DNA of 64,000 nucleotides from assembly GCF_047511655.1 (NCBI RefSeq), contig NC_133389.1, positions 156,193,973-156,257,972 on the forward strand. Direction: 5' to 3'. The stretch is from Castor canadensis. Taxonomy: Eukaryota; Chordata; Mammalia; Rodentia; Castoridae. Under the pieces are notes generated by a model that was not told where the DNA came from, did not search any database, and worked only from the letters and a program-made list of their open reading frames with translations. Below are positions 7,291 to 64,000 of the stretch, piece by piece (position 1 is the stretch's first letter; every line of letters starts with the position of its first letter). The translations under genes were made by a program, and so were the position numbers.

Positions 7291-7479
7291 TATTTCTTTG
7301 ATGCCTTTTCTGCCTGGAGACCGGGAAGGCGCCCATGTCCCTTTTCTGACCCCCAAGATTTTAGGTTTCCCTCACATCCTCTTATGCAAAGATGAGAGAC
7401 ACATGGGAAACGGGGACCTGGGGATCTCCATTCTCCGGTATAGGGGCATAAAGCAGGTCCCCAACTTTCCAGCTCCTGC

Positions 7480-8060: not shown

Positions 8061-9456
8061 GTTAAAAAGCTCACAGAAACACCTCTCCAGGCTCGGATAG
8101 CCCTTTCCTAAAAGAAGGGACTTTTAAAGGAGTCAATGTGAGCATTGTCGCTTGAGCTCAACAGGAGTCCGAGATCACGCCAACTTCAGCACCCTGGACA
8201 GCGTCCCGCCCTTTGTCTTTTAAAAAACTTAGAACAGCTAAGTTTTAAGGAAAAAATAACCTTTGCGGAATCTCGATTTAGGTATTTTAGTTCAGAAAAG
8301 AACACAATATCCTTCTCAAGTGCTTCAAATAGAGAGAATTAGGGTGACCTTGAATCTTGAACATGTCCCTTCAAAATAGGAATGTGTGCGTTCAAGGACC
8401 GTTTGCTTATGGAGTAGTCAGTGGTATTGCGATACATCCTGCGGCTGTGCGGAGGGGTAAGAGTCCATCTTATGTTGCTATATCTCTGTGCTCCGACACA
8501 GGAATGTTCCCATGAGATTTACTTTGCTTGCCTTTGTGACACTAACCTCTAAAATGTTTGGAAAGGTTAAAGTGGAAGTGAGCTGTGTGTCCCGTCTCTT
8601 TCTTCTTAATGTCGAAGTTGTTTAACTGTGATACGAGTCTCTTATCATCCGTGAGAAATGATAAGCTTGTTCTCTGGGAAAAAAGAAAATTTGAGTTCTT
8701 TGAAGATCATAACTTCTCATTGCACTTGTCTGACTTAGTAACATAAGACTATGTGGTATGTGTCTCCCTGATGATTTTAAGGCATTGAGAGCCAGAAAAT
8801 TTGAATGACAATCATTTTCTTTAAAATCCTTGAAATTCATAGCAAGAAGTTTTTAAAACATTATCATTATTAAAATTTTATCAGAATCAAGGAGCATTGT
8901 AGTTGCTTGTAAAAGGTCAATTGAGTCTATTCTAATGTGTTGGATGTATGTCCTTCAGTTTGTTTACCCACACTTTTAGCATCTATTTTGTATTTTTTAT
9001 AATAACATTATATAATTCTGATGTCTTTTATGAAACTAAAATCCACTCTGAATAGAAAAGCATGCAAAGGTAAAAACATTCAAATTCTTTGTTGCACAGG
9101 AATCTTAGGTTAGGATGACTGGGTTTGAGATATTATGGGTTAATTAAAGCCATGTGGCAAGATTTAAGATTTTTGCTTACTATTCTTTTCAACTATATTC
9201 TTCCGTAGTAAGGAAAACCAGGTGCACTTATTCATCTTATGAAGCAACACATCTTGGGAATATTTCTTAGCCTGACTGTCTTGATTTTACACTTACCTGT
9301 CCTGGTAATGAGTCATTTTAGGTAGAATGAGCTGTGATATGGGAAGTGGAATTAGATTTTCCCATTTAGTGACAGTGAATGTGCTTATTTGCTGGGACTA
9401 GGGTTCTTAAGGGCATACTTATTTTTTCAGCTGAGTAGGATGTAATGGGAGACTAA

Positions 9457-16587: not shown

Positions 16588-16691
16588 TCACTTCAAGTTA
16601 GACAAGGTGATTTGATCCACGAGTGCAGAGAAGGCCTTGCAAATCCTCTCCGCTCCACTATACAGGTCCACATTCGCTGAAGACCGCAGGC
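16588..16691 (-). CDS. DYTN: DYTN last coding exon
   Basis: The acceptor is TTGTTGATTTCAG. Two bases complete the glycine codon begun at 29410; then come 33 codons ([20 protein letters not shown]...) ending LSNLK and TGA at 16590-16588. The motif [17 protein letters not shown] is the conserved dystrotelin C-terminus. The exon is separated from the previous one by a 12.7-kb intron holding a full-length L1. Candidate poly(A) signals downstream on this strand are ATTAAA at 16527-16522 and AATAAA at 16128-16123. Confidence 0.9.
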
Positions 16692-31600: not shown

Positions 31601-34600
31601 ATGTACCACCATGCTCGGTTCTTCTAGGCTTTTAAATATATATAGTTATTGTTTAAAAATGTGACATATATAGTGTTTATTATTTTCGCGTCAATTAGTT
31701 AATGAATATACTTTAAAACCACTTCTCAGTTTTAATTTTTATTATGGTGAATAGCAGGAAATATAACCCACAAGACAAAAGCTCCTTGGGGGTTTCAACA
31801 TTTTTAGGAATGTACAAGGGATCCTGAAATGAAAAAGTTTAAGAACCAATGCTATAAAGAATTGCTTTGCCCAGGTCTATTGTTTCTAAATGGTACTGGT
31901 CCTCCAATGGTGCTATTGTCCAGCTGGGGAAGCATATGGTCTGGAGGATGAAAGTGGGAGAGAGCAAGGAGAGAGGTGGTCAAGATGAGGTGTGAAGCTT
32001 TGGGCTATAGCCCTCCCTGGGCTGGAGGACTCAAGGTTATACTTCCAGGTGGTCTAGGTAGCCAGTATCTCCTACATTTTTTACCTTTAGGTCCTGCTCC
32101 ATCTGCTGTATTGCAGTCCATAGACTATCCTGCTTGGTTCTGAGCTCATGAATCATTGTTTCAAATCTGCAACTTTTTTCTTCATGAGAGTTGTATATTG
32201 CTTGCAACTTGTCTTTGTGTCGGTTTAACTGTTTTTTAAGGAGCCTAAGAAGAGAACAGGGTTGAGTGGTTTGGAAGTGCAAGAGACCAGCACTCTCCCT
32301 AGAGCCCTAGCAAGATCTCCTTCACACCAGGCTTTCCTGTGGCTCATCTAACCTTGATTGCACTGCTTCATGCTGTTTGCTCTCCATGTGCGGCTGCCAT
32401 GTCCCAATATGCACCCAATTCCCCTAACAATTCCTTTGACTTTGAGGTGTTTTAGAAAACTCACCAGGCATGTTTTGCATTACTTTTGACGCCATACCTT
32501 TACCACCTACTTAAAATTGAATATTGACGTTACTCATACTTCTGTCTAGAATCACTCCATTCAGGAAGATTGTACACCTAGCATGGCCAGACACCCAACC
32601 TTTGATCAAGACAAGACCACAGGGTAGGAATGATGATACAGCTCATGTTTTGTGGCTTTTTTTTTTTTTTTTTGGTTTTTCTTCCCTTCTCGTTGTTCAT
32701 TAGTTTAAGAATGGCTGGGCGTCGTGGTGTACTCCTGTAAACCCAGGAACCTTGGAGGCAGAGGCAGTAGGAACATGGTACAAGTCAAGTCTGGATAAAA
32801 CACAAGTCCCTATCTGAAAAATAAACTAAAAAAGGATTGAGGTGTGGCTAAATTATGAGATCCTGAATTCAAATCAAAACACACACACACACACAAAGAA
32901 CATAAAGTCGGGTCATTTCCTTACGGTGCTTAAAGCCCTGCCACAGTCTACCCCTCAATTTAGACTCAGCTGAAGTCTTTACAAAGGTAAATGAGCCCAA
33001 AAGCTGGTAAGTGTACATCCCTTCCCCTGCCCTCTGAGCTCATCTGCTTTCCTTTGCTCACTCATGACCTTCCACAATACGGAGATTCTGGTTACTCTCT
33101 GGACACACCAGGCATCTTCTCTTCTCTGAGTTCCTGCTCTTTTTTACTCCTTCTTCTTGGCCCGTTGTTCTCTCCCAAGTTCCTGCTTGATTTGCTCTCT
33201 TATTTCCTTTAAGTCTTTGCTAACATATTACATTTTCAACAAAGCCTTCCTTGACTGTCCTACTAGAAACCAGAAACCATAACCCCAGAATCCCCTCTGG
33301 CATGTGGCACTGCACAGCCCCTTCCCTTCTTTATCTGCATGGTTTTTCACCTCTAATCACTATAGAGCTCCATGACATCTCAGGTTTTGATCTAGCTTCC
33401 AGCCTTTAAATTTCTAGACCTCATGCTCTATGACATACTATATGTTTTACTTATATATTACTCAATTATTTATTTGCTATTGCCTCTTTTTTTTATTGTT
33501 TTATCATTCATATGTGCATACAACGCTTGGGTCATTTCTCCCTTCTGCCCCCACCCCCTCCCTTCCCACCCACTCCACCCCACCCCCTCAATACCGGGCA
33601 GAAACTATTTTGCCCTTATCTCTAATTTTGTTGAAGAGAGAGTATAAGCAATTATAGGAAAGAACAAGGGGTTTTGCTGGTTGAGATAAGGATAGCTATA
33701 CAGGGCATTGACTCACATTGATTTACTGTGCGTGGGTGTTACCTTCTAGGTTAATTCTTTTTAATCTAACCTTTTCTCTAGTTCCTGGTCCCCTTTTCCT
33801 ATTGGCCTCAGTTGCTTTAAGGTATCTGCTTTAGTTTCTCTGCATTAAGGGCAACAAATGCTAGCTAGTTTTTTAGGTGTCTTACCTATCCTCACCCCTC
33901 CCTTGTGTGCTCTCGCTTTTATCATGTGCTCATAGTCCAATCCCCTTGTTGTGTTTGCCCTTGATCTAATGTCCACATATGAGGGAGAACATACGATTTT
34001 TGGTCGTTTGAGCCAGGCTAACCTCACTCAGAATGATGTTCTCCAATTCCATCCATTTACCAGCGAATGATAACATTTCGTTCTTCTTCATGGCTGCATA
34101 AAATTCCATTGTGTATAGATACCACATTTTCTTAATCCATTCGTCAGTGGTGGGGCATCTTGGCTGTTTCCATAACTTGGCTATTGTGAATAGTGCCGCA
34201 ATAAACATGGATGTGCAGGTGCCTCTGGAGTAACAGTCTTTTGGGTATATCCCCAAGAGTGGTATTGCTGGATCAAATGGTAGATCGATGTCCAGCTTTT
34301 TAAGTAGCCTCCAAATTTTTTTCCAGAGTGGTTGTACTAGTCTACATTCCCACCAACAGTGTAAGAGGGTTCCTTTTTCCCCGCATCCTCGCCAACACCT
34401 GTTGTTGGTGGTGTTGCTGATGATGGCTATTCTAACAGGGGTGAGGTGGAATCTTAGTGTGGTTTTAATTTGCATTTCCTTTATTGCTAGAGATGGTGAG
34501 CAATTTTTCATGTGTTTTTTGGCCATTTGAATTTCTTCTTTTGAGAAAGTTCTGTTTAGTTCACTTACCCATTTCTTTATTGGTTCATTAGTTTTGGGAG

Positions 34601-37600
34601 AATTTAGTTTTTTAAGTTCCCTATACATTCTGGTTATCAGTCCTTTGTCTGATGTGTAGCTGGCAAATATTTTCTCCCACTCTGTGGGTGTTCTCTTCAG
34701 TTTAGAGACCATTTCTTTTGATGAACAGAAGCTTTTTAGTTTTATGAGGTCCCATTTATCTATGCTATCTCTTAGTTGCTGTGCTGCTGGGGTTTCATTG
34801 AGAAAGTTCTTACCTATACCTACTAACTCCAGAGTATTTCCTACTCTTTCCTGTATCAACTTTAGAGTTTGGGGTCTGATATTAAGATCCTTGATCCATT
34901 TTGAGTTAATCTTGGTATAGGGTGATATACATGGATCTAGTTTCAGTTTTTTGCAGACTGCTAACCAGTTTTCCCAGCAGTTTTTGTTGAAGATGCTGTC
35001 TTTTCTCCATGATATATTTTCAGCGCCTTTGTCAAAGACAAGTTGGTTATAGTTGTGTGGCTTCATATCTGGGTCCTCTATTCTGTACCACTGGTCTTCA
35101 TGTCTGTTTTTGTGCCAGTACCATGCTGTTTTTATTGTTATTGCTTTGTAATATAGTTTGAAGTCTGGTATCGTAATACCTCCAGAATTGTTCTTTTGAC
35201 TGAGTATTGCCTTGGCTATTCGTGGCCTCTTGTGTTTCCATATAAATTTAATGGTAGAATTTTCAATCTCTTTAATAAATGTTATTGGAATTTTGATGGG
35301 AATTGCATTAAACATGTAGATTACTTTTGGGAGTATAGACAGTTTTACTATGTTGATTCTACCAATCCATGAGCATGGGAGATCTCTCCACTTTCTATAG
35401 TCTTCCTCAGGGAGATTCCAAGATGGCGGCTAGAGGGAGGAAGCAGAAAGCGACTCTCCTCTAGTGAAATCTTGGAGAGACGCTGGAGACACACTTTGCA
35501 GGCATAATCACTGAGAAAAGGCATAACTTTGACCCCTCCACATCTCCAGCCGGTGCAGAGAATCTCCACTTCACGTTAAATGGAGAAACGAGGAGGGCCC
35601 CCGGGGCCACCAGTGGCCGGCGCCCATACTGCTTGGGAAGACGTGGACCAGGTGAGCTTCACGGTACTGCAGTACCCCCACAGACAAGCCTGGGCCAGAG
35701 CAGCATAGCCCCCTGGACAGACTGACCTCCACCCAGGAAAAAAAGAGAAACTGAGTAATAAGCAATAAGAACAGTTAAGACACGCAGGAAAGAGGGTGGG
35801 GCGCCCTGAGCGCTGAAGATTGGGGGAAGGGAACCCTTCCCGGGACTGTAAATAAACAAGCCGGGCGGCTGGAGAGGCTCTGGCGGGAGCGGGGTGCGCG
35901 CCCAGCAACCAGGAGCGGGATCGCTTGTGAGAGTGGAGGAGGGAGGAAAACTCCACAGGAGAGGAAGGAAGACCCACCTCCCACGTGACCTGTAAATAAA
36001 CAAGGCTGCCGGCAGGAGCAGCAGCACCACCCAGTAAGCAGGAGCAGGAAAGCTTCTGAAAGTGGCAGTGGGAGGAAAACTTCAGAGGAGAGGGGGGAAG
36101 ACCCACCTCCCACATGAACCGTAGATAAACACGCAGGCCTGACACGCGGGGGCAGTGTCACCTTTCCCAGTGCTTGGAAAGGGGAAAGCCTGTAGCAGAG
36201 GCTCCCGCACAGGAGAACTCTGAGCAAACAAAGCCTGTGGGACCAGGTGAGTGCGAAGTTCACCCCAGAGACCTGCATAAATAACACCGCCAGCTACAGG
36301 CTGAGAGCAGCAGGCAGGCAAGCCACAGTTGCAGATACCACTCTCAGAACTGCCTCCAGACGCTTTTTTTTCTTTTTCTCCCTACCTTTGATGAGAGAAC
36401 AACCGAATTACACCTGCAAGCCGAAAAACTTACTGAAACTGTATCGCATTTGAACTTGGGACACTTGGTGGGGCTTTTGTGTGTGTGTGTGTGTGTGTGA
36501 GTGTGTAGTTTTGTTCCACTTTATGCATCCCCTTTGATGAGACAACTACAGAACAACATCTGAGGCACCAACTCCAGGACTGGAGATTGAGACGGACACC
36601 CAAATTATTAAGACTGAAACTGCATTGCATATAAACTTGGAAGTTTTTTTTTTTTTTTAATTTTCTATTTTCCATTTTATTTTAATTCATTTTTATATAT
36701 AGATATTTCTTTCATTTACTTATTTTTTATTTTTTTATCTTTGATTTTCAATCCTCTCTCTGTCTCTCTAATGTCTGTTCAGCTTACTGTCAATTAGTAC
36801 ACTAACACTCCCTGTTTATACCTTTGAAACTCTCTTGTCTGATACCTTGTTCTGCTTTCTCCCTCTTGTCTGTATATTTGTTTTCCCCTTTTCTTTAACT
36901 TCTTGTTTTCCATCTCAGCTCACTGTTCCATTCTAAATATTACCACTGTTTTTATTGCAAGCTAGAAAATACTTAATTGCACACAGTACAGGGACAGTAA
37001 CAATACCAAGGACAATGACAGGAAGACAGAAAAAACAGGGAAACCAGTTTCCTCACAGCAAAAATTAGTCTTCCTCAATCTCTTTCTTCAGAAGTTTATA
37101 GTTTTCCTTGTAGAGGTCTTTCACATCTTTTGTTAGGTTTACACCTAGGTATTTGATTTTGTTTGAGGCTATTGTAAATGGAATTGTTTTCATACATTCT
37201 TTTTCAGTTTGCTCATTGTTAGTGTATAGAAATGCTAATGATTTTTCTATGTTGATTTTATATCCTGCTACCTTGCTGTAGCTATTGATGATGTCTAGAA
37301 GCTTCTGAGTAGAGTTTTTTGGGTCTTTAAGGAATAGGATCATGTCATCTGCAAATAGGGGTATTTTGACAGTTTCTTTATGTATTTGTATTCCTTTTAT
37401 TCCTTCTTCTTGCCTAATTGCTCTGGCTAGGAATTCCAGTACTATGTTGAATAGGAGTGGAGATAGTGGGCATCCTTGTCTTGTTCCTGATTTTAGAGGG
37501 AATGGTCTCAGTTTTTCTCCGTTAAGTATAATGCTGGCTGTAGGTTTGTCATATATAGCTTTTATAATGTTGAGGTACTTTCCTTCTATTCCTAGTTTTC

Positions 37601-40600
37601 TTAGAGCTTTTATCATGAAATGGTGTTGGATCTTATCAAAGGCTTTTCCTGCATCTATGGAGATGATCAAGTGGTTTTGTCTTTGCTTCTGTTAATGTGG
37701 TTTATTACGTTTATTGATTTTTGTATGTTGAACCACCCCTGCATTCCTTGGATGAAGCCTACTTGGTGGTGGTGAGTAATCTTTTTGATGTGTTGTTGAA
37801 TTCGGTTTGCCATTATTTTGTTGAGGATTTTTGCATCAATGTTCATTAAGGAGATTGGCCTATAGTTCTCCTTTTTGGAGGTGTCTTTGCCTGGTTTTGG
37901 GATAAGTGTAATACTGGCTTCATAAAATGTGTTTGGCAGTTTTCCTTTCCTTTCTATTTTGTGGAACAGTTTAAGGAGGGTTGGTATCAGTTCTTCTTTA
38001 AAGGTCTGATAGAATTCAGCAGAGAATCCATCAGGTCCTGGACTTTTCTTTTTGGGGAGACTCTTGATTGCTGCTTAATTTCATTTTGTGTTATAGGTCT
38101 ATTCAGGTGATTAATTTCCTCTTGGTTCAGTTTTGGATGATCATACATGTCTAGAAATCTGTCCATTTTTTAAGATTTTTTAATTTATTTGAATATAGGT
38201 TCTTGAAGTAGTCTCTGATGATTTCCTGGACTTCCATGGTGTTTGTTGTTATCTCCCCTTTAGCATCCTGATTCTACTAATTTGGGTTTTTTCTCTCCTC
38301 ATTTTAGTCAGGTTTGCCAGGGGTCTATCAATCTTGTTTGTTTTATCAAAGAACCAACTTTTTGTTTCATTAATTCTTTGTTTGGTTTTTTTGGTTTCTA
38401 TTTCATTGATTTCAGCTCTTATTTTTATTATTTCTCTCCTTCTATTTGTTTTGGGATTTGCTTGTTCTTGCTTTTCTAGGAGTTTGAGATATATCATTAG
38501 GTCATTGATTTGGGATCTTTCAGTCTTTTTAATATATGCACTCATGGCTATAAACTTTCCTCTCAGGACTGCCTTTGCTGTGTCCCATAGGTTCCGGTAG
38601 GTTGTGTTTTCATTTTCATTGACTTCCAGGAACTTTTTAATTTCCTCTTTTATTTCATCAATGATCCATTGTTCATTAAGTAATGAGTTATTTAGTTTCC
38701 AGCTGCTTGCATATTTTTTGTCTTTACTTTTGTTGTTGAGTTCTAGTTTTACTGCATTGTGATCAGAAAGTATGCATGGTATAATTTCTGTTTTCTTATA
38801 TTTGCTGAGGCTTGCTTTGTGCCCTAGGATATGATCTATTTTGGAGAAGGTTCCATGGGCTGCTGAGAAGAATGTATACTGTGTAGAAGTTGGATGAAAT
38901 GTTCTGTAGACATCAAGTAGCTCCATTTGATCTATTGTATGTTTTAGATCTTGGATTTCTTTATTGATTTTTTTGTTTGGATGACCTATCTATTAGATAA
39001 TGGGGTGTTAAAGTCTCCCACAACCACTGTGTTGGCATTAATATATGCTTTTAGGTCTTTCAGGGTATGTTTGATGAAATTGGGTGCGCTGACATTGGGT
39101 GCATACAGGTTGATAATTATTATTTCCTTTTGGTCTATTTCCCATTTTATTAGTATGGAATGTCCTTCTTTATCTCATTTGATCAATGTAGGTTTGAAGT
39201 CTACTTTGTCAGAGATAAGTATTGCTACTCCTGCCTGTTTTTGGGGGCCATTGGCTTGGTAAATCTTCTTCCAGCCTTTCATCCTAAGCCTATGCTTATT
39301 TCTGTTGGTTAGATGGGTCTCCTGTAAGCAACAAATTGTTGGATCTTTCTTTTTAATCCATTTCGTCAAGTGGTACCTTTTGATGGGTGAATTAAGTCCA
39401 TTAACATTAAGAGTTAGTACTGATAGATATGTGGTGATTCCTGTCATTTAGTTGTCTTAGTTGTTTGAAGGTTTGATTGTGTGTACCTAAGTTGAGGTTA
39501 CTCTCTACTCTCTTGCTTTTTCTTTTCCTGTGGTTTGGTGTTGCCTGTCTTTTCATGGTTAAGTTGGGTTTCACTTTCTGTGTGCAGAATCCCTTGAAGA
39601 ATCTTTTGTAGTGGTGTCTTTGTGGTCACATATTGTTTTAGTTTCTGCTTATCATGGAAGACTTTTATTGCTCCATCTATTTTGAATGATAGCTTTGCTG
39701 GGTAGAGTATCCTGGGGTTGAAGTTATTTTCATTCAGTGCCCGGAAGATCTCACCCCATGCTCTTCTTGCTTTTAATGTTTCTGTTGAGAAGTCTGCTGT
39801 GATTTTGATGGGTTTACCTTTGTATGCTATTTGTTTTTTCTCTCTTACACCCTTCAATATTCTTTCTCTAGTTTCTGAACTTGTTGTTTTAATGATGATA
39901 TGTCATGGGGTAGTTCTATTTTGATCTGGTCTGTTTGGTGTCCTGGAGGCCTCTTGCATATGGATGGGAATATCTTTCTCTAGATTTGGGAAATTTTCTG
40001 TTATTATTTTGTTGAATATATTATGCATTCCCTTTGCTTGCACCTCTTCTCCTTCTTTGATGCGCATGATTCTCAAGTTTGGTCTTTTGATGGAGTTGGT
40101 GAGTTCTTGCATTTTCTTTTCACAGGACTTGAGTTGTTTAATTAATAGTGCTTTGGTTTTTCCTTTAATTACCATTTCATCTTCAAGATCTAAGATTCTG
40201 TCTTCTGTTTGTTCTATTCTTCTGGATTGGCCTTCTGTTTTGTTTTGCAGTTCTGTTTCGTTCTTTTTTCCTGAGGTTTTCCATATCTTGGGTGGTTTTC
40301 TCTTTAATGTTATCTATTTTTTCCTGAGTTCATTTATCTCTTTATTAATTGTGTTCTCTGTTTCATTTTGGTGTTTATACAGTGCTTCTATGGTTTCCTT
40401 TATTTCTTCTTTGCTTTTTAAAATTCTCTATTTTCATTGTCTTGGAATTTCTTGAGTGTCTCCTGTACATTTTGGTTGACCATATCCAGTATCATCTCTA
40501 TAAAATTCTCATTGAGTACCTGCAGTATGTCTTCTTTTAAAATTATTCTTATGGGCTTCATTGAGTTCTTTGGCATAGTGTACCTTCATTTTGTTGGAGT

Positions 40601-43600
40601 CTGTATCTGAGTATCTGTTTTCTTCATTTCCCTCTAGTTCCTGTACTAATTTTTTGCTGTGGGGAAATTGGTTTCCCTGTTTTTTCCATCTTCCTGTCAT
40701 TGCCCTTGGTGTTATTACTGTCCCTGTACTGTGTGCAACTGTGTATTTTCTAGCTTCTAATAATAACAATGGTGATATTTAGAATGGAAGGGTGAGAGGA
40801 GATGGAAAGCAAAGAAGTTAAAGAAAAAGGGAAAAACAAATAAACAAGTAGGAAAAAACAAAACAAAGAATCAAACAAAAGAGTTTCAAAGATATAAACA
40901 GGGAGCATTAGTGTACTAATCGACAGTAAGCTGTACAGGCATTAGAGAGACAGAGAGAAGATTGAAAATAAAAAATAAAAAGAATAAAGATAAGAATAAA
41001 AATTTAAAAAAATAAATGAAAAAAAAATATGTATATAAAAATAAAATAAAATATAACAAAATGAAAAATAGAAAAAAAACCCTCCAAGTTCAAATGCAAT
41101 GAAGTTTCAGTCTTAATAATTTTGGTGTCCGTCTCAGCCTCAAATCCTGGAGATGGTGCCTCAGATGTTGTTCTGTAGTTGTCTCATCAAAGGGCACGCA
41201 TAAAGTAGAACAAAACTGCACACACACACACACACACACACACAAAACAAACCCACAAAGTGTCCCAAGTTCAAATGCAATACAGTTTTAGTATGTTTTT
41301 CAGGATGCAGGTGTAGTTCAGTTGTTTTCTCATCAAAGGTAGGGAGAGAGAAAAAAAAGAGTCTGGAGACAGGTTTGTGAATGGCCACCTGTGGCTGTGG
41401 CTTGCCTGCCCCCTGCTGTTAGCCTGCTGTTGCTGGAGGCGTTATTTATGCAGATCTCTGGGGTGAGCTTAGCACTCACCTGGCCCACAGACTTTTTTTA
41501 CTCAGAGTTCTCCTGTGCATGAGCCACTGCTACAAGCTTTCCCCTTTCCAAGCACACTGGGGGAGGTGACACTGCACCCACTTTCTCTGACCTGCGTGTT
41601 TGCTTACAGCTCACGTGGGAAGTGGGTCTTCCCCCTCTCCTGTGGAGTTTTCCTCCCACTGCTGCTTTTACAAGCTTTCCCGCTCCTGATTGCTGGGCAT
41701 GTGCCGCTGCTTCTGCCGGCCATCGTGTTTGTTTACAGCTCATGTGGGAGGTGGGTCTTCCCCCCTCTCCTGTGAAGTTTTCCTCCCTCCACCACTCTTA
41801 CAAGCTTTCCTGCTCCTGATTGCTGGGTGCACACCCCGCTCCCACCAGAGCCTTTCCGGCCAGGCCTGGCTTGTTTATTTACAGTTCTGGGAAGAATTAC
41901 CCTCCCCCCATCTTCGGTGCTCAGGGCGTCCCACCCTCTTTGCAATGTGTCTTTATTGTTCTTATTGCTTATTACTCAGTTTCTCTTTTTTCCCCAGGTG
42001 GAGGTAGGTCTGTCCAGGGGGCTATGGTGATCTGGCCCAGGGTTGTCTGTGGGAGTACCGCGTACCGCTTAGCTCACCTTATCTGCGTCTTCCCAAGCTG
42101 TCTGGGTGTGGGCAACTGGCGGCCTGGGGGCCCTCCAGGTTTCTCCATTTAACGTGAAGTGGAGATTCTCTGCACCGGCTGGAGGTGTGGAGGGGTAAAA
42201 GTTTTGCCTCTTCTCAGTGGTTTTGCCTGCAAGGTGTGTCTCCAACATCTCTCCAAGATTTCACTACAGGTGGCATGCTTTCTGCTTCCTCCCTCTAGCC
42301 GCCATCTTGGAATTTGCTATTGTCTCTTGATCATGGAATTTTTTTCTATTTTGTTTATTACTATGTCCCCAGGCTCTGGCTTAAAATAATCTCTATCATA
42401 CGGTAGGTATGCGATTAAAATTGTTTAAATGTAGTTTTATTCTTTGATCACCACTGTTGGTATATTTATAGAATTTGTTGAAATTGGTTGTCTGGTGCGA
42501 AATGCAACATTTCTCAATGTCAGAATCCTTAAAATTCCTAATTGCCATAATGCTTGCAGAGGTCCTAGAGTATAGTTTGTGATGCCATCCAAGGCTGGTG
42601 TCTCTGAAAGATAGTCTTCAAGTGTCAGTCAAACAGGTGAGAGAGGAATCTGACTCTAAAGTCCTTGATTGTAATTGGAGTGTCAAACATGACCATAGGA
42701 TGGGTTTTTCAGAAAGGAGTCAGTCAAGGGTTTTATATAAATGACAACAAAGAAACACACTCAGAAGGCTCTAGACATGGTTCTCTGTACCTAAAGTGTG
42801 CCTGTTTTGGTTGCTATTGCTAACAGTCTCTCTCTTTCATATTGTACACCACACACATCCCTCCCTCCTCTCTGGCTCATCCACCATCCTCGGATAGCTA
42901 GGAGTCTTGTGTGTCATTCTTCCACAGTACAGGGGAATGTAGCAGAGCATTATCAGATACCCAGTTATTTTCTTACTCTGCTTTTATGTTTTAAGAAGAA
43001 ATTTTTATGGAGTGTTTCTAGTAAGCAGAATTCATCTGATAGAATTATTTCTAGCATCTGGAAGCCCACTACTTTCCAAGCAAATATCCACTATTAACAA
43101 ACAGTTCAGATAATCTGAGCAATAATTTCTCTCAAATGACCTGAAATCTACCTTTCTAAATTTTCATTCTTTTAATATGTATTTCTGCTTTCTGTAGCTA
43201 AGCAGTTTGAATCTCATTTTCAACAAGAGCCCAACTGCTCCCAAGAAAGTGAATTATGCACAGTGCAGTGAAATATGACTTCCCCTGATGAGTCCCTAGT
43301 ACATTGTAGAGTAATAAATAGGTCACCAACAACTGAATCACCCTCTTTCAATATATAATCAGACTGTGCTGCTTTTTAAATAATCAGTGATGTAATGCTG
43401 TTATGAACTTGCATTTAACTGTATGTCTCAGTTCTTTCACACTGTTTGCTGTAAATCTGGGTCTACTGCTATAGGCTTCTGTTTAATACCTTAGAATTTG
43501 GTCCTTATTAATTGCTCTATTGTTCTAGACTATTATATCTTAATGATTGAAAATTGTTATAAAGCTTATAAACTATGCTTTTACTATCATATCACACACA

Positions 43601-49600: not shown

Positions 49601-52600
49601 TGTTCCAACTCTGGGTTCCATCTCTCCTTCTGACTCTCTTTCATGCTCCATTCTGAAAGAAATTGTGATCCAACTTATCTATTGTACATGCATCCATTTT
49701 ACTATTCATCCATCTGTCCATCTACCCATATCCAACAATCAGCATCTACCATATTCAGATGCCAGTATAAATTCTGGTAATACAACTGGAATCAATGAAA
49801 GATTCTTTCCATCACAAAGCATACATTAACAGTGCAGGATACAGTAGTAAACAAATAAATTAAATAATAAGATCTATAAAATGTCTGACAGCAAACAAGG
49901 GCCAGGCATGGTCACTCACACCAGTAATCCTGCTACTTGGGAGGCAGAGATTGGGAGGATCACAGTTCAAGGCCAGCCCAGGCAAAAAACTAGGGAGACC
50001 TCATCTTGACCAATAAAAGCTGGTTGCTGTGGTGTGTGCCTGTTATCCTGGCTATGTGGTGAACATAAATAAGAGAATGGAGGTCCAGACTGGCCAGGCA
50101 TAAACACAAGACCCTATTCAAAAAATGCCTAAAGCAGAAAGAGCTGGAGCATGACTCAAGCTAGAGCACCTGGCTAGCAAGCATGAGGCCCTGGCTTCAA
50201 ATCCCAGTACCACCAAAATATAAAATAAGGGAGGATGACTGATAGTGACAGAGTGAAGACAGGGGCTGAAATGGTAAATGGTCATAAGAAAAAAGATTAA
50301 GGAAGAGATGACATCTGAGCAAAAACCTTTGATGGGTTGTTAGGTGAAGTATCAAACCATGTAGGAAGGGGGCATAAGGGTACCAATGCCCAGATGTGCC
50401 CAGGAGCAGAAAGGCGAGGTATATGGCTGAAGTGGAACAAGTCAGAGCAGGTGGGGAATGGAATTTTTAGAACCAGGAGAAAAGCAGTTGGGAGAGCTTT
50501 GGCTTCCTTTGATGGTGGGAAGCCAGCAGAAGGTTTGTGAGAGTGACACGAAAGGACCACCCTGCCTGTGGCACTAGAAATAGATGTGGAGAGCCCAGTG
50601 AGTTTATCTTAGCAAAATAATAAAAATGTGGGAAGATGCGTATAGAGGGATGTTAGCTACAGAATTATGGAGGAGGGGGAATTTGGAAATAAACACTTTC
50701 AGTGATAAGAGATTACTTACGATTTATTACATTTCCTTTTAAAGATGTGAATAAGGTTGATAAAAATGATGATTTGGAAGCTAATCACATGGGCACAGTC
50801 TTCATTTAATGTAGGTGAAAAGAAAAATGAAAAACTGTATCGGAATGGTAGCAGAATGCCTGTTTTACTAACATTACAATGTAAAAGCACTTATCTGTGA
50901 GTGGTGGGATACAATATGTCTTTTTTATTTTTAAAGAGTAAACTATAAACTTTTAATTCATTTTTCAAAAGCAAAACAGCAAAAACTGGGACTATAAAAC
51001 AAAGTTATCCCAATTGTCCAAGGATTGTCTGTCTCTTTCTGATGCCTTCCTTCAGTTGCAGTAATTACTTTAAATGGTTGAATAGTCACTAAAAGGTGTT
51101 CTTGCCTCTTAGTTCTACTATAAAAGTAAAGACCATTCATTTCTAGAGGGAAAGGTTCCTTAATCTTTCCTTCTACCACCTTCCTTCTTTAGCATTAGAC
51201 AACCTGCTGCCCTGTCCTATGCTGGCCGCGGAACCCAACACCTAGGTCCTCTGTGCTGCCAATCTGAGGGACTGTCACTCATAGACACTCACCTGGCCTG
51301 CACATGGTTAGCCATGACTTTTGGATTCACCTGGCCCAACAGCCACTGCCTTCTCATAGCTTCATTTCTCCTAAGGCACCCCCGGAGCAGGTTGTTTCTG
51401 AGGGTTCTGAGGAGGAGTTTTGTATTTTCCTTTGCTGACAACTGCTGGAATGGCCAAGGTTATAAAAGACATCACATGGTTCTAAACATGGTTTTCTTTC
51501 CTTGCTTCGGTAGACTGTCCACCACGAAAGCTTTTGGAATTATTTCTCTTACTTTTATTTATTAAGATTATTTACTTAGGAATATAATCTTAGTTCTTTA
51601 CTCTGAAATTTTCTTCCCTTTTCTCTCTATAGAAACCCACACACAAATCTCCAAGTTGAATGCAGCAACTCCCTGAATAACTCCTCTTCCTTAGGGTAAC
51701 CCAGTAAGTAATTGGCAATTCTAAAGCTAGAGGAGAGAATGAAAGGAGTAAGTCTATGTTTGTTAAAGGAAGTGTGATTCCTTTGCAAGTTGGATAACAT
51801 GTGAATTTAACTCCACAAAAAACATCACAGATTTAATTCTGTGTCCAATTTCAGTGGATTCGTGGGCCACTTGAAATTCATCCATCTTCCCGACCTTGAG
51901 AACTTCTACCAAAAAGAAGGAATAGGATGTTTGATTAAAGGCTGTTCAGCCCTTGAAATTTAAAGTGTAATAAAAAAGGTGGTCACACGGTGTCACTGTA
52001 ACATCATCCAAACCCTAGCTTTTCAAGACCCAGAAGATCACAGGCCAATGAGCGTGGACCACAGAGTTAATGCAGGTTACCAAGGAAATGCTCTCTGGAA
52101 CTTATTTGACAAGATCCAGGCACTTGCCTTTTGTGGACCATTCATGTTAAAGATAGGAGGGGAAATTCTCCTTGGCAAAGGCAACCAATCAACATCCATC
52201 ATCACTTGGTGCTGGGTGTTTAAGAGGGATGCTATTTACATGGAGAAACTGAGTCACAGGAAATTAGTGATGGAAAGATAAATGTTTTTTCTGGGAAAAA
52301 ATAGGCTGCTTTCTGCTTAAAATGTACCATTATATTTCCCCTTCTTAGAAAGAACTAAATTTACTTGCGGGTTCTACTAACTTTCTTCCAAAATGAAGCA
52401 TTAGCCACTCTTCCAGGAAAAACCTAGATAATAATCTTTCTTTTTCTTTTTTTTCTAAAGAAAAAAATACTTGAAACTTAGGGTTCAGGGGAAGACATGT
52501 TAAAAAAGAAAAAAATCATCCAAAAATATAACAACTGTAAGTTGTATTACATCATTTTTGCCAAATCAGAGCCTTTTAATTTTCCATCCATACCAATTTC

Positions 52601-55600
52601 TGATGCCTCTCTTGATTAACTTTCACAGATATTTTCTAGCTCATTAGAGGGGATCAATGGTCAGGTTGGACTCTATTTAACATTTTCTTGTCCTCAAATG
52701 CTTTTATTAGAATCTGCAATGTAAAGAAAGCACATTTGCATTGAAAGGTATTTAAGGCTGAGTTGTCAATTCTTTGTCTTAAATATTTTAAGATATGATA
52801 GAAGAAGAATCTGTGGTTTATTGGAAGTAAGGTTTTTTGATGGCTGTATCTTATAAGGACTTGAAAAATAAATACTTCAGTATGTTGTATTAGACATTAT
52901 CTGAACACAGTGTTCGACGTCAGGATGTAGCTTCTGGTGGGACTTGCTGTGAAGACCAGATATGAAACACCCTTGGCAAATGTCAAAGTTTAGGCACTTG
53001 AGACAGCGGTATCTGTCAATTAAAATGGAAAAGCACTGTACATTGTTACCAGTAGGGAATCAAATAAATAACATTCAGGCAGAGAAAGAGCATCCCAAAA
53101 CATACAGGAGATGTCTGAGCTAGCTAATGAGTATAAGGTTTCTATCAAAGTTGATAGGGATGTTAGATGACTCCAATTTCTTATTTAATCAAAGAAATTT
53201 TCTTTTAATAGTATTTTATAAGGCATTATGTCAATATGGTTTTTATCCAACATACTATGCTATAAAAGTCTGATTTACCTTCCCTGCCCCAACCCCAATA
53301 CCAAGTGCCTTCTATAGGCTGGGCACTGTGTGCCACAAGCTGTAGAGAACCCTTAAGTCTGCAGCCATATTTTGTGTAACTGAACAATGCACTCTCATAG
53401 TGCGAGTTTATTTCCTAACTCCATACAGCTGTAGTGGGCTTGCCTAGGACCATATGCTAACTCTGTCCTTAAATTTGTTCCTCTGTCCTCTGACACCATG
53501 TACAGATGTTGTTTGTTGTTGGTGCTTTTACCAAATAGAGAACCAAGGACTTCCCCCAATCTTGTCTTAACCTTACATGGTTCTTCAGAGCATAAATGTA
53601 TCATGTCCCTCTAGAATTTAATTCTCTGATTAGGGACATTCTTTGGTCCTTGTGCCTTTTCTTTCTTTAGAAGGCTCAGTTTTTGCCCTTTTTCTGCTGC
53701 CTTCAGATCTGTGGATGCTTCCATTCTCCAGTGGCTTTATTAATCTCTCTAAATCTAAAGCCATTACTGGGAGTGTTTGGGAGCCAAAAACTGAAATTTA
53801 AGGTAAGGATTGTAAAGTGTACAAACTTTTTTTTTTCTTGAAAGTACAGGGGTTTGAACTCAGAGCCTTGTGCTTGTTAGGCAGGTGCTCTACCACTTGA
53901 GGGGCCTCCAGTCCTTATTGCTTTAGGTTATTTTTCAGATAGAGTATTTTTCATTTTTGGCTAGGTCAACCTCAGACTGTGATCCTTCTATGTGTGCTTC
54001 TTGTGTAGTTGGCATGAGGCACTGTGCCCTGACCAAACAACTTTTAATAGACTCCGACAGCTGGAGGTAAAAGACCTCTAAAAACCGTTGATACCCCCTC
54101 CTTTTTTTTTTTTAACCTTGCCTTGGATGTCTGGGAAGAAAGTTAGTTCACATGGAAGTATTTCTAAGAGGAAGCTTAATCTATTTTTAACCGATAAGGA
54201 CATATTCTAAAACTCAAAGTATGGCACTTTTTTGTGTATTGTGGTACTGGGGTTTGAACTTGCTAGGCAGGCACTCTACCACTTGAGCCATGCAGCCACA
54301 TTTTTCTTTGAATGTTTTTTCAAATAGGGTCTCATTTTTATGCCCAGGCCAGCCTGGACTGTGATCTTTGTATTTTAGCTTTCTGTTAGCTGGGATGACA
54401 GACATGTGCCATGTCTGTCATGTGCTCTACTTCTTTTCATTGAGATGTGGGTCTTTCTAACTGTTAGCCTGGGCTGGCCTCAAATCCACAATCCTCTTGA
54501 TCTCTGTCTCTAAAATAGCAAGGATTATAGGCACTAGCCACTATGCCCAGCCAAAGAATGTCATTTCTTGTTCTGTGTTTTGTTCTTTTCTTGGATGATC
54601 TGAGCAAGTCACTTAAAATCTTTGATATTCAATTTTTGCCATCTATAAATTAGGAATACTAACACCTGATTTATGTCATACATAATGATTTTGAAAAAAT
54701 ATTTTAAGGTAAAAGTTGTGTTTTATATAATTGCAAAATTAATTCTATACCTGGCTCAGTCTAAGAATTATACAAAAACTTTTTTTTCAAAAACAACTTT
54801 TAATATTGCTTGTTGATTAAGTGATTATGACATGTATGTAACATGGTAAATGACATTCCTGTGCCTCCAGTGTCCAATATAAGAAGAGTATTTTTCACTG
54901 TACTATGGATATTTCTCTGGTCCTGCTTGCTTGGCTTCAAACAGTCCTGCCTGTTGATATATTTTATCATCTCAAGTTCAGTTATGTGTAAAGAGCTTTT
55001 TTATGAGCCACATTTCCCTGTGTCCTCCAAATTCCCTGCAAACTCAATTCATTTTCTCAGCAAAATTAAGACTTCATATCCAGGCTTTTTATGGGCAGAG
55101 CAGTTTATTTTACAACTGTGGGAACAGTGTTTAATTTCTAAGCTAGTTAAGGTTGGGAAATATGGGAAGGGAAGTGAAATAAAGTGAGCAAGAGCCAAGC
55201 CTCCAGACCCCTGCCCACCTGGGCACCTCAGGTATGAGCTTCACTCCTACCTCTTCTCCATTCCTGTGTTCACCCATCACAAATAATGGGCCGTCTGTGC
55301 CTGCTCTAGAACTTTTAGTTTCCTTCTCTCCTTCCCAAACCTGTAATAATAACAACTCTAATTTTACATCCTCATTGTTTAGTTTTTGGGAGACCTACAT
55401 CAACCATTCTCTAAGATGGGAGTTTGCCTGTCATCCTGAAAGCTGTTGTAAGGTCTGAATCACTCAGCCCTAAACCTAGCTGCCCTTGTCTCTCGGCAGG
55501 CCATGTGGCTCTCACAAATGCACGTTTTTCCTTTGAGTCCCATCCCTTGTTTCCAGTTGTCTACACAGGGAGGCAGCATAGCGCCACAGTTGCAAGGCAG

Positions 55601-56532
55601 GGACTCTGGCTTCAGAATGCAGCCTTTGCCACTTGCTAACCACGTCAATTTAACGTTTCTGCAAATTGGAGACAGTAATGCAACCTTTTCAAAAGGCATG
55701 TAACATGTTTGAAATGAAATAATTCATGTGAACTGCTCACTCTAGTCTAGCATTTGCTTAACAGTTAACAAACATAAGCTGTTCTTATTACAGGTGGCCT
55801 CCAAAGTGTGTAAGTAAAAGTGTAATTTTTTTTGAAACAAGAGATCATTTTTCCCTTTAGAGGAATAAGAATGTTTAGTAGTCAGTGTATAAATTAGTAG
55901 AAGAGTTTAACATTCCACGAATTATAGGAGATGACATAAACTTATTTTTGGCTAGGATGCCTCAGACAGGGAATTGTTGAGCTGAAAAAGTCAACTGAGT
56001 TCCAGATATGTGAGAAGAATCTAGAGAGATGTGGCTCCTCTGTTAGAGGAATATTTCTGTCTGTGAAATACCATGATGGTTCTACCTTAGTCCTGTAATT
56101 GGGAAGGTCTTGCAGGCACCGCACCGAACAGGGTAAGTGGCCTGTTGTGTGGTTGACAGGCGGTAGCAGGTTGGGAACCACAGGAGAATGAGAGGCTCAG
56201 ACAGAATCCAAGACAGGAATTTCTCCTCCTTGATTCCTGGGCTCAACACCTGAAAAACAATGGCACAAAAGTGCATTTTTAGGCATGATTCGTACTTTTC
56301 TTTTCTGGCTCTGTTTCTGTCAGTTCTGCAGGAGAAGTTTACCACAGAAACAGTTACAGGCAAGGCTACCTCCTAAATTAGGTTGTCTACTTTAAATCAG
56401 TCAGCCAAACTTTTCAAGCCTGTCTGCTCTGGCTCCCAGAGACATTTTCATAGCACTGACCCCTCGGAAACAGCTGAGGACGGCACTTTCCACAGAGCAC
56501 AGTGTGCGACTCTCTCCCACGACAGATGGGAT
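16588..56532 (-). CDS. DYTN: Dystrotelin (DYTN), nine exons, 5' part not found
   Basis: Dystrotelin is a ZZ-type zinc-finger protein of the dystrophin/dystrobrevin superfamily, reported in the nervous system and testis; its function is poorly known. Exons on this strand, in transcript order: 56532-56461, 56249-56086, 53012-52901, 51441-51293, 46195-46048, 45047-44977, 32244-32085, 29890-29410, 16691-16588. Every junction is phase-compatible and no exon has an internal stop. Joined, they encode 486 codons, or 413 without the 46 kb and 45 kb exons. The order is: end of the EF-hand-like region, ZZ domain, basic helix, coiled coil, acidic low-complexity region, conserved short C-terminus. The N-terminal roughly 160 residues expected from the family are not seen. 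One donor is broken (see exon 53012-52901), so the gene may be impaired. Confidence 0.88.
18472..21103 (-). pseudogene. Broken L1 ORF2 (endonuclease/reverse transcriptase)
   Basis: Fragments in shifting frames at 21103-20921, 20583-20116 (fingers/palm, [14 protein letters not shown]), 20085-19801 ([13 protein letters not shown]), 19758-19528, 19147-18875 and 18846-18472. Family order is retained, but stops between the blocks show it is inactive. Confidence 0.88.
21913..22895 (-). pseudogene. Broken L1 ORF1 (RNA-binding protein)
   Basis: Three overlapping pieces in different frames: 22895-22674 (coiled coil, [17 protein letters not shown]), 22699-22304 (RRM-like, [14 protein letters not shown]) and 22272-21913 (C-terminal domain, [16 protein letters not shown]). 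L1 ORF1p is the nucleic-acid chaperone of the element. The frame is interrupted, so no functional product is expected. Confidence 0.85.
23955..24280. other. DYTN intronic sequence, nothing recognised
   Basis: No repeat or exon recognised between the L1 right duplication and the SINE at 24283. Confidence 0.4.
24283..24388 (+). repeat. ID-type SINE with AAAT-repeat tail
   Basis: GCTGGGCTGGTGGAGTGCCTCAAG start, tRNA-like B box, then (AAAT)n at 24361-24388 grown from the poly(A) tail. Confidence 0.8.
24410..25860 (-). repeat. Old L1/HAL1-type LINE
   Basis: Antisense blocks are recognisable from L1 endonuclease and ORF1 regions, for example around 24730-24790 (ACCATTGACATGGAATACC...TTTCAGCCTGTGTGTCC) and 25600-25740. 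It is heavily diverged. Sequence at 25870-26040 looks like LINE coiled-coil sequence in the opposite direction, suggesting an internal inversion. Confidence 0.6.
26230..28250. other. DYTN intron, no coding feature recognised
   Basis: AT-rich. Open frames at 27404-27616 and 27684-27872 on the - strand lack splice or family support. No clear repeat family seen. Confidence 0.4.
28255..28745 (+). repeat. MaLR-like LTR fragment split by a TTCC microsatellite
   Basis: The old repeat reads CACAGGCTGAATTGTGTTG..., ATGTGACTGTATTTGAGATA..., GAGGCCTCAGAAGAAACCAA... and ends GTTATGGTTACCCTAG. A TTCC/TTTC microsatellite occupies 28563-28690. A piece of the same family occurs in reverse at about 46835-46960. 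The family name is uncertain. Confidence 0.5.
29150..29330 (+). repeat. MIR SINE fragment
   Basis: Contains AATGCTTACTATGTGGCAGGTGC and CACCTTTAACTCTCACA, typical MIR core order. Confidence 0.7.
29410..29890 (-). CDS. DYTN: DYTN large exon, acidic low-complexity region
   Basis: The 481-bp exon encodes 160 codons plus one base. The acceptor is TTTGCCCAG and the donor TCAG|GTAAGA. The first codon is ACA; the product begins [14 protein letters not shown]. It is rich in Pro, Gln, Asn, Ser and Glu and probably disordered. Near the end is a conserved acidic helix ([19 protein letters not shown]) followed by [10 protein letters not shown]. The long uninterrupted frame in a region with little structural constraint argues that the gene was under selection until recently. 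Confidence 0.93.
31023..31107 (-). repeat. ID-type SINE
   Basis: Antisense tRNA-like unit with T-run tail at 31023, inserted in the hAT-like element. Confidence 0.82.
31425..31622 (-). repeat. B4-like composite SINE
   Basis: On the - strand a B1-like unit (TGGTGGTACATGCCTGTTATCC) is followed by an older ID-like unit (GATGTACTCAGTGGTAGAGC), the order typical of rodent B4. Confidence 0.65.
32085..32244 (-). CDS. DYTN: DYTN coiled-coil exon
   Basis: The 160-bp exon has acceptor GTTCTCTTCTTAG and donor AAG|GTAAAA. It encodes one completing base plus 53 codons beginning [14 protein letters not shown] and ending QQMEQDLK. The Leu/Ile spacing and high charge indicate a parallel coiled coil, equivalent to the dimerising helices of dystrophin and dystrobrevin. 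Residues such as [15 protein letters not shown] are close to the family sequence as I know it. Confidence 0.92.
32712..32897 (+). repeat. Composite 7SL-ID SINE with CA tail
   Basis: GGCTGGGCGTCGTGGTGTAC start of a 7SL unit, a decayed ID half from about 32835, and a (CA)n tail at 32880-32896. Confidence 0.7.
32905..33472 (+). repeat. L2 LINE 3' region
   Basis: Shows the L2 3' pattern: GCTTAAAGCCCTGCCACAG..., CCTTTAAGTCTTTGCTAAC..., CAAAGCCTTCCTTGACTG. Truncated by the L1 insertion at 33488. Confidence 0.65.
33966..35315 (-). pseudogene. L1 ORF2 C-terminal part, 449 codons open
   Basis: This is the longest open frame in the window. It starts in the connection region ([19 protein letters not shown]) and includes the L1 C-terminal zinc-knuckle-like motif C-x3-C-x7-H-x4-C ([14 protein letters not shown]...). 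It ends LICGH. The open frame and low divergence suggest a fairly recent insertion, but the remaining ORF2 is cut off by the inserted fragment. Confidence 0.9.
35410..37065 (+). mobile_element. 5'-end-only L1 fragment (5' UTR plus start of ORF1) inside the L1
   Basis: Begins GGGAGATTCCAAGATGGCGG, the intact L1 5' end, and stops just after the ORF1 start (ATG at 37016; GGAAACCAGTTTCCTCACAG shared with ORF1). It is flanked by perfect 12-bp repeats TAGTCTTCCTCA at 35398-35409 and 37066-37077. No poly(A) tail is present. It corresponds to the reverse complement of about 40650-42312. GT microsatellite at 36479-36506. Confidence 0.88.
35850..36130 (+). repeat. Monomer-like tandem units in the L1 5' UTR
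   Basis: Two tandem units (35850-35993 and 35994-36122), each starting AAATAAACAAG and ending GACCCACCTCCCAC...GT, followed by the start of a third (AGATAAACACG). Equivalent units lie in the - strand L1 at about 41550-41890. Confidence 0.7.
37065..39447 (-). pseudogene. L1 ORF2 N-terminal part (endonuclease and reverse transcriptase), broken
   Basis: ORF2 opens at 39447 with the endonuclease ([17 protein letters not shown]), continues at 38926-38249 and, after frame breaks, at 37670-37065. That last piece contains the reverse-transcriptase block [18 protein letters not shown] and the catalytic FADD box near 37350. The frame enters the inserted fragment at 37077/37066 and resumes at 35315. 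Confidence 0.9.
39498..40701 (-). pseudogene. L1 ORF1, broken
   Basis: The start is ATG at 40701 ([17 protein letters not shown]), followed by frame breaks. Pieces at 40175-39903 ([14 protein letters not shown]) and 39857-39498 ([16 protein letters not shown]) hold the RRM and C-terminal domains. Confidence 0.85.
42330..44485. other. DYTN: DYTN intron, no coding feature recognised
   Basis: AT-rich intron upstream (in gene direction) of the L1. No convincing exon; open frames at 42798-43097 (+) and 44064-44315 (-) lack support. Confidence 0.4.
44500..44853 (+). repeat. Trimeric 7SL-7SL-ID SINE with target-site duplication
   Basis: First 7SL-like unit from 44501 (ATGGCTCATGACTATAAACC), second from about 44625 (GATGCGTGCTGGTGATCCCAG), an A-run at 44738-44755, then an ID unit (GGCATGGCTCAAGTGGTAG). 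Flanked by TTGTTTCMAATTAA at 44486-44499 and 44854-44867. Confidence 0.8.
44977..45047 (-). CDS. DYTN: DYTN exon, start of coiled coil (cassette part 2)
   Basis: The 71-bp exon has acceptor TTGCTTCTGTAG and strong donor AAG|GTAAGG. The 23 codons ([20 protein letters not shown]...) are charged, with heptad-like spacing of hydrophobic residues, and run directly into the coiled coil of the next exon (RLLKKQLN). The phase is 0 in and 2 out, completing an Arg codon with the next exon. It is too short to stand out by itself; the call rests on splice sites, phase and the continuity of the coiled coil. Confidence 0.65.
45411..45498 (-). repeat. ID-type SINE
   Basis: Well-preserved antisense ID unit with T-run at 45411-45419. 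Confidence 0.85.
45890..45994. repeat. GGAA tetranucleotide microsatellite
   Basis: About 100 bp of nearly pure (GGAA)n with a few AAAG/AGAA interruptions, about 54 bp downstream (gene direction) of the donor of the DYTN exon at 46048. Confidence 0.95.
46048..46195 (-). CDS. DYTN: DYTN exon, Ser/Gly/His-rich linker (cassette part 1)
   Basis: The exon is 148 bp with acceptor CTTTCTAACAG and donor CAG|GTGAGT. One base completes an Arg codon; then come 49 codons starting [11 protein letters not shown] and ending DDNTPHHQ. The composition suggests a flexible linker, and no domain is recognised. It enters in phase 2 and leaves in phase 0. With the next exon it forms a frame-neutral pair, because the flanking exons at 51.3 kb and 32.2 kb could also join directly. 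From memory the human protein lacks this stretch while the mouse protein is longer; I cannot check this. Confidence 0.68.
46830..46965 (-). repeat. MaLR-like LTR fragment
   Basis: GGGCTGCTATGAAAAAATACC..., GTGTGGCTTAAATAACAC..., ACAGCTCTAGAGACTGAGAGTC: reverse of the repeat seen at 28.3-28.7 kb. Short and old; family name uncertain. Confidence 0.45.
47560..48140 (+). repeat. L2 LINE fragment
   Basis: Degenerate L2 reverse-transcriptase sequence: CAAGGTCATCTATGACCTCA..., CAAATTTACATCTACAG..., ACAGAACTCCTGATCTTCCC. Confidence 0.65.
48430..49890. other. DYTN: DYTN intron, no feature recognised
   Basis: AT-rich; no exon or clear repeat family. Confidence 0.4.
49896..50222 (+). repeat. Trimeric 7SL-7SL-ID SINE
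   Basis: 7SL unit (GGCCAGGCATGGTCACTCAC), second 7SL-like unit from about 50028 (GCTGTGGTGTGTGCCTGTTATC), then ID unit (GAGCATGACTCAAGCTAGAGC). Confidence 0.8.
50235..50640 (-). repeat. L2 LINE fragment
   Basis: Antisense L2 3' pattern: GATGACATCTGAGCAAAAACC, then GGAAGCCAGCAGAAGG. Confidence 0.5.
51293..51441 (-). CDS. DYTN: DYTN exon, basic helical segment after ZZ
   Basis: The product reads [17 protein letters not shown]... and ends NHVQA plus two bases of an Arg codon (AG|G). The donor is CAG|GTGAGT type and strong. The acceptor is a tandem NAGNAG (CCAGCAG|TTG), so use of the first AG (exon start 51444) would add one Gln. The chosen start keeps alignment with the family. The segment is rich in Arg, Leu and Asn and probably helical. 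Confidence 0.85.
51450..52895. other. DYTN: DYTN intron between ZZ exon and next exon
   Basis: No further exon recognised. The 100-codon open frame at 51979-52281 (+) has no family resemblance. Confidence 0.45.
52901..53012 (-). CDS. DYTN: DYTN exon, core of ZZ zinc finger; donor mutated
   Basis: One base completes the Arg codon; then come 37 codons starting [12 protein letters not shown] and ending VEHCVQ. The CxxC pairs in RCLKC and ICQGC, with the downstream His-rich HSKSHQKLH stretch, complete a ZZ finger that binds two zinc ions. The acceptor is AATTGACAG. The last codon CAG is followed by ATAATG, where CAG|GTAATG would be expected, so the +1 base of the donor is A. Other GTs nearby (52908-52907, ACT|GTGTTC) are poor, though that one could join in frame to a later AG in the next exon. 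Confidence 0.88.
53280..53510 (+). repeat. MIR-like SINE fragment
   Basis: Pattern CCAAGTGCCTTCTATAGGCTGGGCACTGTG and a decayed 3' part. Confidence 0.45.
53828..54043 (-). repeat. Composite 7SL-ID SINE
   Basis: Antisense ID unit (GTTTGAACTCAGAGCC...) followed by a decayed 7SL unit ending GGCATGAGGCACTGTGCCC. Confidence 0.72.
54225..54554 (-). repeat. Trimeric 7SL-7SL-ID SINE
   Basis: Antisense ID unit at 54240-54297, then two 7SL-like units, the second ending CACTATGCCCAGCC at 54554. Confidence 0.78.
54590..54720 (-). repeat. MIR-like SINE fragment
   Basis: GAGCAAGTCACTTAAAATC, GCCATCTATAAATTAGG: antisense MIR order. A similar fragment occurs at about 56805-56900. Confidence 0.55.
55600..55790 (-). 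repeat. MIR-like SINE fragment
   Basis: GCCACTTGCTAACCACG..., TTTCTGCAAATTGGAGAC..., antisense MIR order. Confidence 0.55.
56086..56249 (-). CDS. DYTN: DYTN exon, linker and first ZZ cysteine pair
   Basis: The 164-bp exon runs from a TTGTTTTTCAG acceptor to the donor AAG|GTAGAA. The product begins [14 protein letters not shown] and contains the superfamily motif of aromatic and hydrophobic residues around [11 protein letters not shown]. It ends at [15 protein letters not shown] plus two bases of an Arg codon. The CGAC pair supplies the first two zinc ligands of the ZZ finger. The phase is 0 at the start and 2 at the end, matching the next exon. Confidence 0.93.
56461..56532 (-). CDS. DYTN: DYTN exon upstream of ZZ domain (72 bp)
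   Basis: The exon encodes 24 residues starting IPSVVGES and ending SCFRG, homologous to the dystrophin segment just before the WW/EF-to-ZZ linker (the pattern ...SCFQ is conserved in the superfamily). The acceptor is strong (CCTCTTGCAG). The exon starts and ends in phase 0. The donor reads GGG|GTCAGT, usable but weak. A diverged copy of this exon with its flanks lies at 57961-58097 and keeps CAG|GTAAGT. Confidence 0.82.
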
Positions 56533-57589: not shown

Positions 57590-58430
57590 GTGACAGGAAG
57601 TGACATTGCTATGTCAGAGAGATATTTGCATCCCTATGTTCATTGCAGCATTATTCACATTCGCCAAGACATGGAAAAAACCTGGGTGTCCATGGACACT
57701 CATGAATGGAGAAGATGTGATGCATATAAAATAGAATACTGCCAAGTCTTCAAAAAGAAGGAAATCCTACCATTTGCTATAACATGGATGAACCTAGAAA
57801 ACAATATGCTAAGTGAAACCAGCCAGACACAGGAATACTACGTGGGAAATCCGAAAAAGCTGAACTCATAGAAACAGAGAGTAGAATGGTGGTTTCCAGG
57901 AGCTGGGGTGGAAATGGGGAGATGTTGCTAAAAGAGTATAAACCTTAAGTTTACTTTAAATGTCTACTTTAAATCAGTCAGCCAAACTTTTCAAGCATGT
58001 CTGCCCTGGTTCTCAGAGACATTTTCATAGCACTTACCTGTTGGAAACAGCTGAGGACAGCACTTTCCACAGACTCTCTCCCACAACAGTTGGGATCTTA
58101 ATTATAAGATAATTAAGTTATGGGGGTCTAATATACAGCATGGTATTATATTGTTCACTTGAAATTTGATAAGAGAACAGATTTTGGGTCTCCCCTTCTC
58201 TCCAACCCCCTCACAGTGACTATAGGTGATTATGAGTGTGATGGATGTGGCTAAGTAACTTGATCATGGTAAACATTACACTGTGTGTATATGGGAAAAA
58301 ACCCACATCTTTTCTTTTTTTGGGATGGGGCTGTCTGTGCTGGTCTTGATCCTCCTTCTTCTTGCCCTGGAGTAGCCAGAACTACATCTTGAATATGTAT
58401 AATTTTTTTATTTGCCAATTAAATTGGGGG
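57590..58430 (+). repeat. Old L1 3' end (ORF2 tail and 3' UTR)
   Basis: Typical mammalian L1 3' sequence: CCCTATGTTCATTGCAGC, GAACTCATAGAAACAGAGAG, then after the inserted DYTN copy (57961-58097) GGGGGTCTAATATACAGCATG and CACTTGAAATTTGATAAGAG. A short T-rich repeat piece (58308-58380) interrupts the end. Confidence 0.75.
57961..58097 (-). pseudogene. DYTN: Diverged partial copy of the 72-bp DYTN exon with flanking intron
   Basis: This segment matches 56384-56534 over its whole length (3' intron flank, donor, exon, acceptor edge). It keeps the IPTVVGES coding start and a canonical donor (CAG|GTAAGT) but lacks 13 bp in the middle of the exon, which shifts the frame. Its acceptor side has lost the pyrimidine tract. 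It lies inside an old L1 3' end whose sequence resumes on both sides. Confidence 0.75.
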
Positions 58431-63998: not shown

Positions 63999-64000
63999 AA

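Follow-up and report, generated by a model that had tools for sequence, protein, structure and literature searches.

The window, by which we mean the whole 64,000-nucleotide stretch of Castor canadensis DNA analyzed here, carries seven exons of the dystrotelin gene (DYTN) on the minus strand, which we label a to g in the direction of transcription. The exons were placed by tblastn with the human DYTN protein as a guide, and the splice sites were then read at their edges; exons a to e gave E-values between 8.6e-22 and 5.2e-8, exon f 0.020, and exon g 1.8e-9. The features of the gene model, with a slash at each exon/intron boundary, are as follows.

56461..56532, minus strand: DYTN exon a, 72 nt, donor GGG/GTCAGT (tblastn, splice-site reading)
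56086..56249, minus strand: DYTN exon b, 164 nt, first half of the ZZ finger, weak donor AAG/GTAGAA
52901..53012, minus strand: DYTN exon c, 112 nt, second half of the ZZ finger, entered after two codon bases and ending at a codon end
52905..52906, minus strand: in-frame cryptic GT with a very poor score, -6.4 (frame test, rough matrix)
52899..52900, minus strand: AT in place of the intron c donor GT (sequence reading, gene model)
51442..52900, minus strand: intron c, 1459 nt, AT...AG
51293..51441, minus strand: DYTN exon d, 149 nt (or 152 nt with the upstream AG of its CAGCAG acceptor), donor CAG/GTGAGT
32085..32244, minus strand: DYTN exon e, 160 nt, donor AAG/GTAAAA
29410..29890, minus strand: DYTN exon f, 481 nt, donor CAG/GTAAGA
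16588..16691, minus strand: DYTN exon g, the last coding exon, 104 nt, ending in a stop

When joined, exons a to g give 413 open codons (1239 coding nt) that run to the exon g stop, in agreement with the original statement that the other exon frames are open. The assignment to dystrotelin follows from the ZZ and C-terminal exons, which lie in order, keep their phases, and share one open frame. With the joined exons b to e as the query, the Pfam ZZ model PF00569 matches across the b-c junction (E 2.7e-11, 43.5 bits versus a cut-off of 21.4), and dystrophin chains in the PDB match exons a to c with a best E-value of 4.2e-24. Exon f encodes a 13-residue stretch that resembles the human motif IKERKDELEEE described by Jin et al. 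(PMC1790709). The tblastn search did not recover the N-terminal (EF-hand) exons; above exon a it returned just a degenerate copy of that exon (E 0.29) and a chance-level hit on the plus strand (E 6.3), and the N-terminal exons may lie beyond position 64000. No counterparts of mouse DYTN exons 11 and 12 were recognized in the window. The acceptor of exon d is a tandem CAGCAG (51442-51447, minus strand), either AG of which keeps the frame.

All seven placed exons have AG acceptors, and the donors of exons a, b, d, e, and f are GT; that of exon c is AT. Exon c closes with GTT CAG and intron c opens with ATAATG, so that the minus-strand boundary reads GTGTTCAG on the exon side and ATAATGTC on the intron side, with G at 52901 as the last exon base, followed by A at 52900 and T at 52899 where GT is expected. 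Intron c thus lacks the GT at +1 and +2 of a U2-type GT-AG intron. Our minus-strand reading confirms both the letters and the coordinates of the AT previously reported at this donor, and it bears out the claim that the final CAG joins TTG exactly, in that the frame is kept into the TTG at 51441. Exon c appears to be the sole copy in the window; it gave the only significant tblastn match, and two further hits (E 1.2 and 6.3) were no better than chance.

We scored the donors with a rough matrix of consensus frequencies, in which only the ranking is meaningful. The exon c donor scores -2.75 and the other five 4.35 to 12.8. When positions +1 and +2 are left out, the remaining seven positions of the exon c donor score 3.85, which is the 98.3th percentile of the minus-strand 9-mers of the window, and the site then ranks third of the six, below d and f and above a, b, and e. 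Since its context outside +1 and +2 lies in the top 2% of 9-mers, the donor appears intact save for its first base, as would be expected of a donor that was recently lost. CAG/GTAATG had been called a strong donor; by the rough matrix its context comes third of the six, below d and f. Among the five GT donors, that of exon b, AAG/GTAGAA (intron part at 56080-56085, minus strand), is the weakest by the same matrix.

The predicted consequences for the transcript were computed on the joined exons a to g, to whose 413 residues all residue counts refer, and the RNA behavior itself is a projection from the sequence. If exon c is skipped alone, the frame shifts and a stop follows after 107 residues. 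If intron c is retained, seven new residues (IMSNTTY) are added before an in-frame TGA at 52879-52877, after 123 residues; an AATAAA starts at 52822, 55 nt past this stop. Seven of the eight cryptic donors that we tested (at -97, -70, -8, +5, +25, +167, and +307) lead to a stop after 112 to 146 residues, and the sole frame-keeper is the GT at 52906-52905, six bases inside exon c (-6). A shifted donor was rejected as a remedy: use of the GT at 52908 or of that at 52895 disrupts the frame, and the in-frame GT at 52906 has the very poor score listed above. The alternative GT at 52908-52907, which had been put forward earlier, is thus out of frame. Double skips of c and d (261 nt, 87 codons) or of b and c (276 nt, 92 codons) keep the frame to the exon g stop; a triple skip of c, d, and e does not.

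Taken together, the letters at this boundary make it fairly probable, in our judgment, that a substitution at +1 inactivated the exon c donor and that DYTN is a recent null, or nearly so, in this animal or species. The A at the first intron position of c is observed, and the G that would have preceded it is our reconstruction. As we envisage it, a single G-to-A-type substitution would have killed the donor of exon c, the second ZZ exon, in the sequenced animal, after which the transcript would skip exon c, retain intron c, or take one of the poor cryptic donors. Nearly all of these outcomes would lead to a stop after 107 to 146 of the 413 residues, with loss of the C-terminal half, and much of the DYTN mRNA would presumably be degraded. 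A pseudogene might be expected to carry further disabling changes; none was found in the 1239 coding nt or at the other intron ends of the model. The 413 open codons and the absence of a second lesion across the seven exons suggest that the event was recent. If substitutions are assumed to accumulate at 2 to 4e-9 per site per year, and indels at one-tenth of that, one lesion is expected per 1.6 to 3.2 My; for a sequence that shows none, the 95% upper bound is 4.9 to 9.7 My. Such a bound fits a recent loss, and it fits the absence of any loss just as well.

An open frame elsewhere is also what an intact gene would give if the A at 52900 were a sequencing or assembly error, or one of two alleles, with most copies of the gene spliced normally. 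We consider this somewhat unlikely, although it is the main rival to a true donor loss, and it draws on the fact that one base alone is affected while the rest of the seven placed exons is intact. Against it, the published lability of DYTN makes true lesions comparatively likely (PMC1790709), position 52900 lies outside a homopolymer as judged by eye, and a random error would seldom be expected to hit any of the 24 terminal letters of the six model introns. A different possibility is that intron c, which does start with AT, is still spliced out as a non-canonical intron, of either the U12 or the U2-type AT-AC kind. We rejected this as extremely improbable on the strength of its ordinary AG acceptor (CAGCAG/TTG) and weak motif matches. 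Six AC dinucleotides lie between 60 nt upstream and 40 nt downstream of the acceptor, and none of them, taken as the intron end, preserves the frame. The U12 donor motif ATATCCTT is matched at four of eight letters, and the U12 branch site TTCCTTRAY reaches at best 6/9 in intron c versus 6-7/9 upstream of five other acceptors, so that the earlier statement that intron c is not of the U12 type holds. In addition, the review PMC3584512 describes AT-AG combinations as disfavored and poorly spliced in U12 introns.

The loss of the donor might also have left DYTN with a remade product that the animal retains, whether an in-frame double-skip protein or a short EF-hand/ZZ-only protein ending in the intron; we hold this to be quite unlikely. 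This reading forms a subset of two wider ones. That an in-frame double skip (c and d, or b and c) still yields a protein, one without a complete ZZ finger, strikes us as very unlikely; such a skip would parallel that of exons 11 and 12 in human DYTN, both double skips here keep the frame to the exon g stop, the exon b donor is the weakest of the five GT donors, and double skips have been documented after splice-site mutations, as PMC8865296 relates, but the exon d donor CAG/GTGAGT scores best of all, so that single skipping should compete strongly. Highly improbable, by our estimate, is the proposal that intron c stays in the transcript once U1 no longer binds and that an intronic poly(A) site is used, giving a short dystrotelin made of the EF-hand/ZZ half and the seven new residues. 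The retention stop at 52879-52877 and the AATAAA at 52822 lie in the right order for it, and PMC3865583 documents retention after two donor mutations in dystrophin; however, AATAAA is ordinary here and occurs in 12.4% of 100-nt minus-strand windows. All three options offered originally, namely skipping or mis-splicing, a recent pseudogene, and a polymorphism or base error, are still live, with the recent donor loss as the one that we favor.

A recent donor loss in exon c would be of a known kind, at another exon of DYTN, and not new in kind. In human, the exon 12 donor of DYTN has changed from GT to AT and the exon is skipped (Jin et al. 2007, PMC1790709), which is the same gene and the same donor change as at exon c here. 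Amplified human cDNA lacks both exon 11 and exon 12, which removes 75 codons and keeps the frame; chimp and rhesus share these site defects, and mouse DYTN has the two further exons, 11 and 12, that are skipped in human (PMC1790709). The gene was amplified in brain in that study. The two cases differ in that the human exons, poorly conserved (11) and very small (12), are lost together in frame, whereas here a ZZ-finger exon is affected whose single loss shifts the frame. The chimp gene, with three nonsense mutations confirmed by genomic PCR (PMC1790709), is likewise a recent loss in one species, but its lesions are nonsense changes verified by PCR and ours is one splice change read from an assembly. 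Human disease-type splice-site mutations, as covered in PMC8865296 and PMC3865583, are of the same kind in mechanism, and those cases are RNA-based; single skips, double skips, and cryptic sites are all among the outcomes given in the former.

A recent null in this animal or species would fit what has been published on primate DYTN, namely its splice decay and its dispensability. Our literature searches pairing DYTN with pseudogenes, or with gene loss in mammals, found no relevant report, and the papers found on gene loss in rodents did not name DYTN in their titles or in the opening lines of their abstracts. Taken alone, the observation is one base change in a gene that is already known to decay. 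If it is real and fixed, it would add one more lineage with a damaged dystrotelin, a fast-evolving relative of dystrophin, and would help in asking whether DYTN is dispensable across mammals. A remade product, if true, would mean that GT-to-AT donor changes have remodeled dystrotelin twice independently, the primate case being the first.

The window holds several further features. A degenerate second copy of exon a and the start of its intron lies 1577 nt upstream on the minus strand (57961-58073 versus 56384-56496), with 92% identity over 113 nt and similarity that starts at about the 5' end of the exon. This copy has 13 nt missing inside the exon, which gives a frameshift, and is without a clear polypyrimidine tract; its donor is the consensus CAG/GTAAGT, and that of exon a itself is GGG/GTCAGT. 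Long L1-like ORF fragments, recognized by eye, occur within the DYTN introns at 17982-22949 and 33845-40313 on the minus strand, and look-alike G+C-rich ORF blocks were noted, also by eye, at 35576-36381 and 41473-42152. Finally, the stretch at 7250-8249 is G+C-rich, with up to 64% in 500-base windows versus 38% for the whole window, and is possibly a CpG island.
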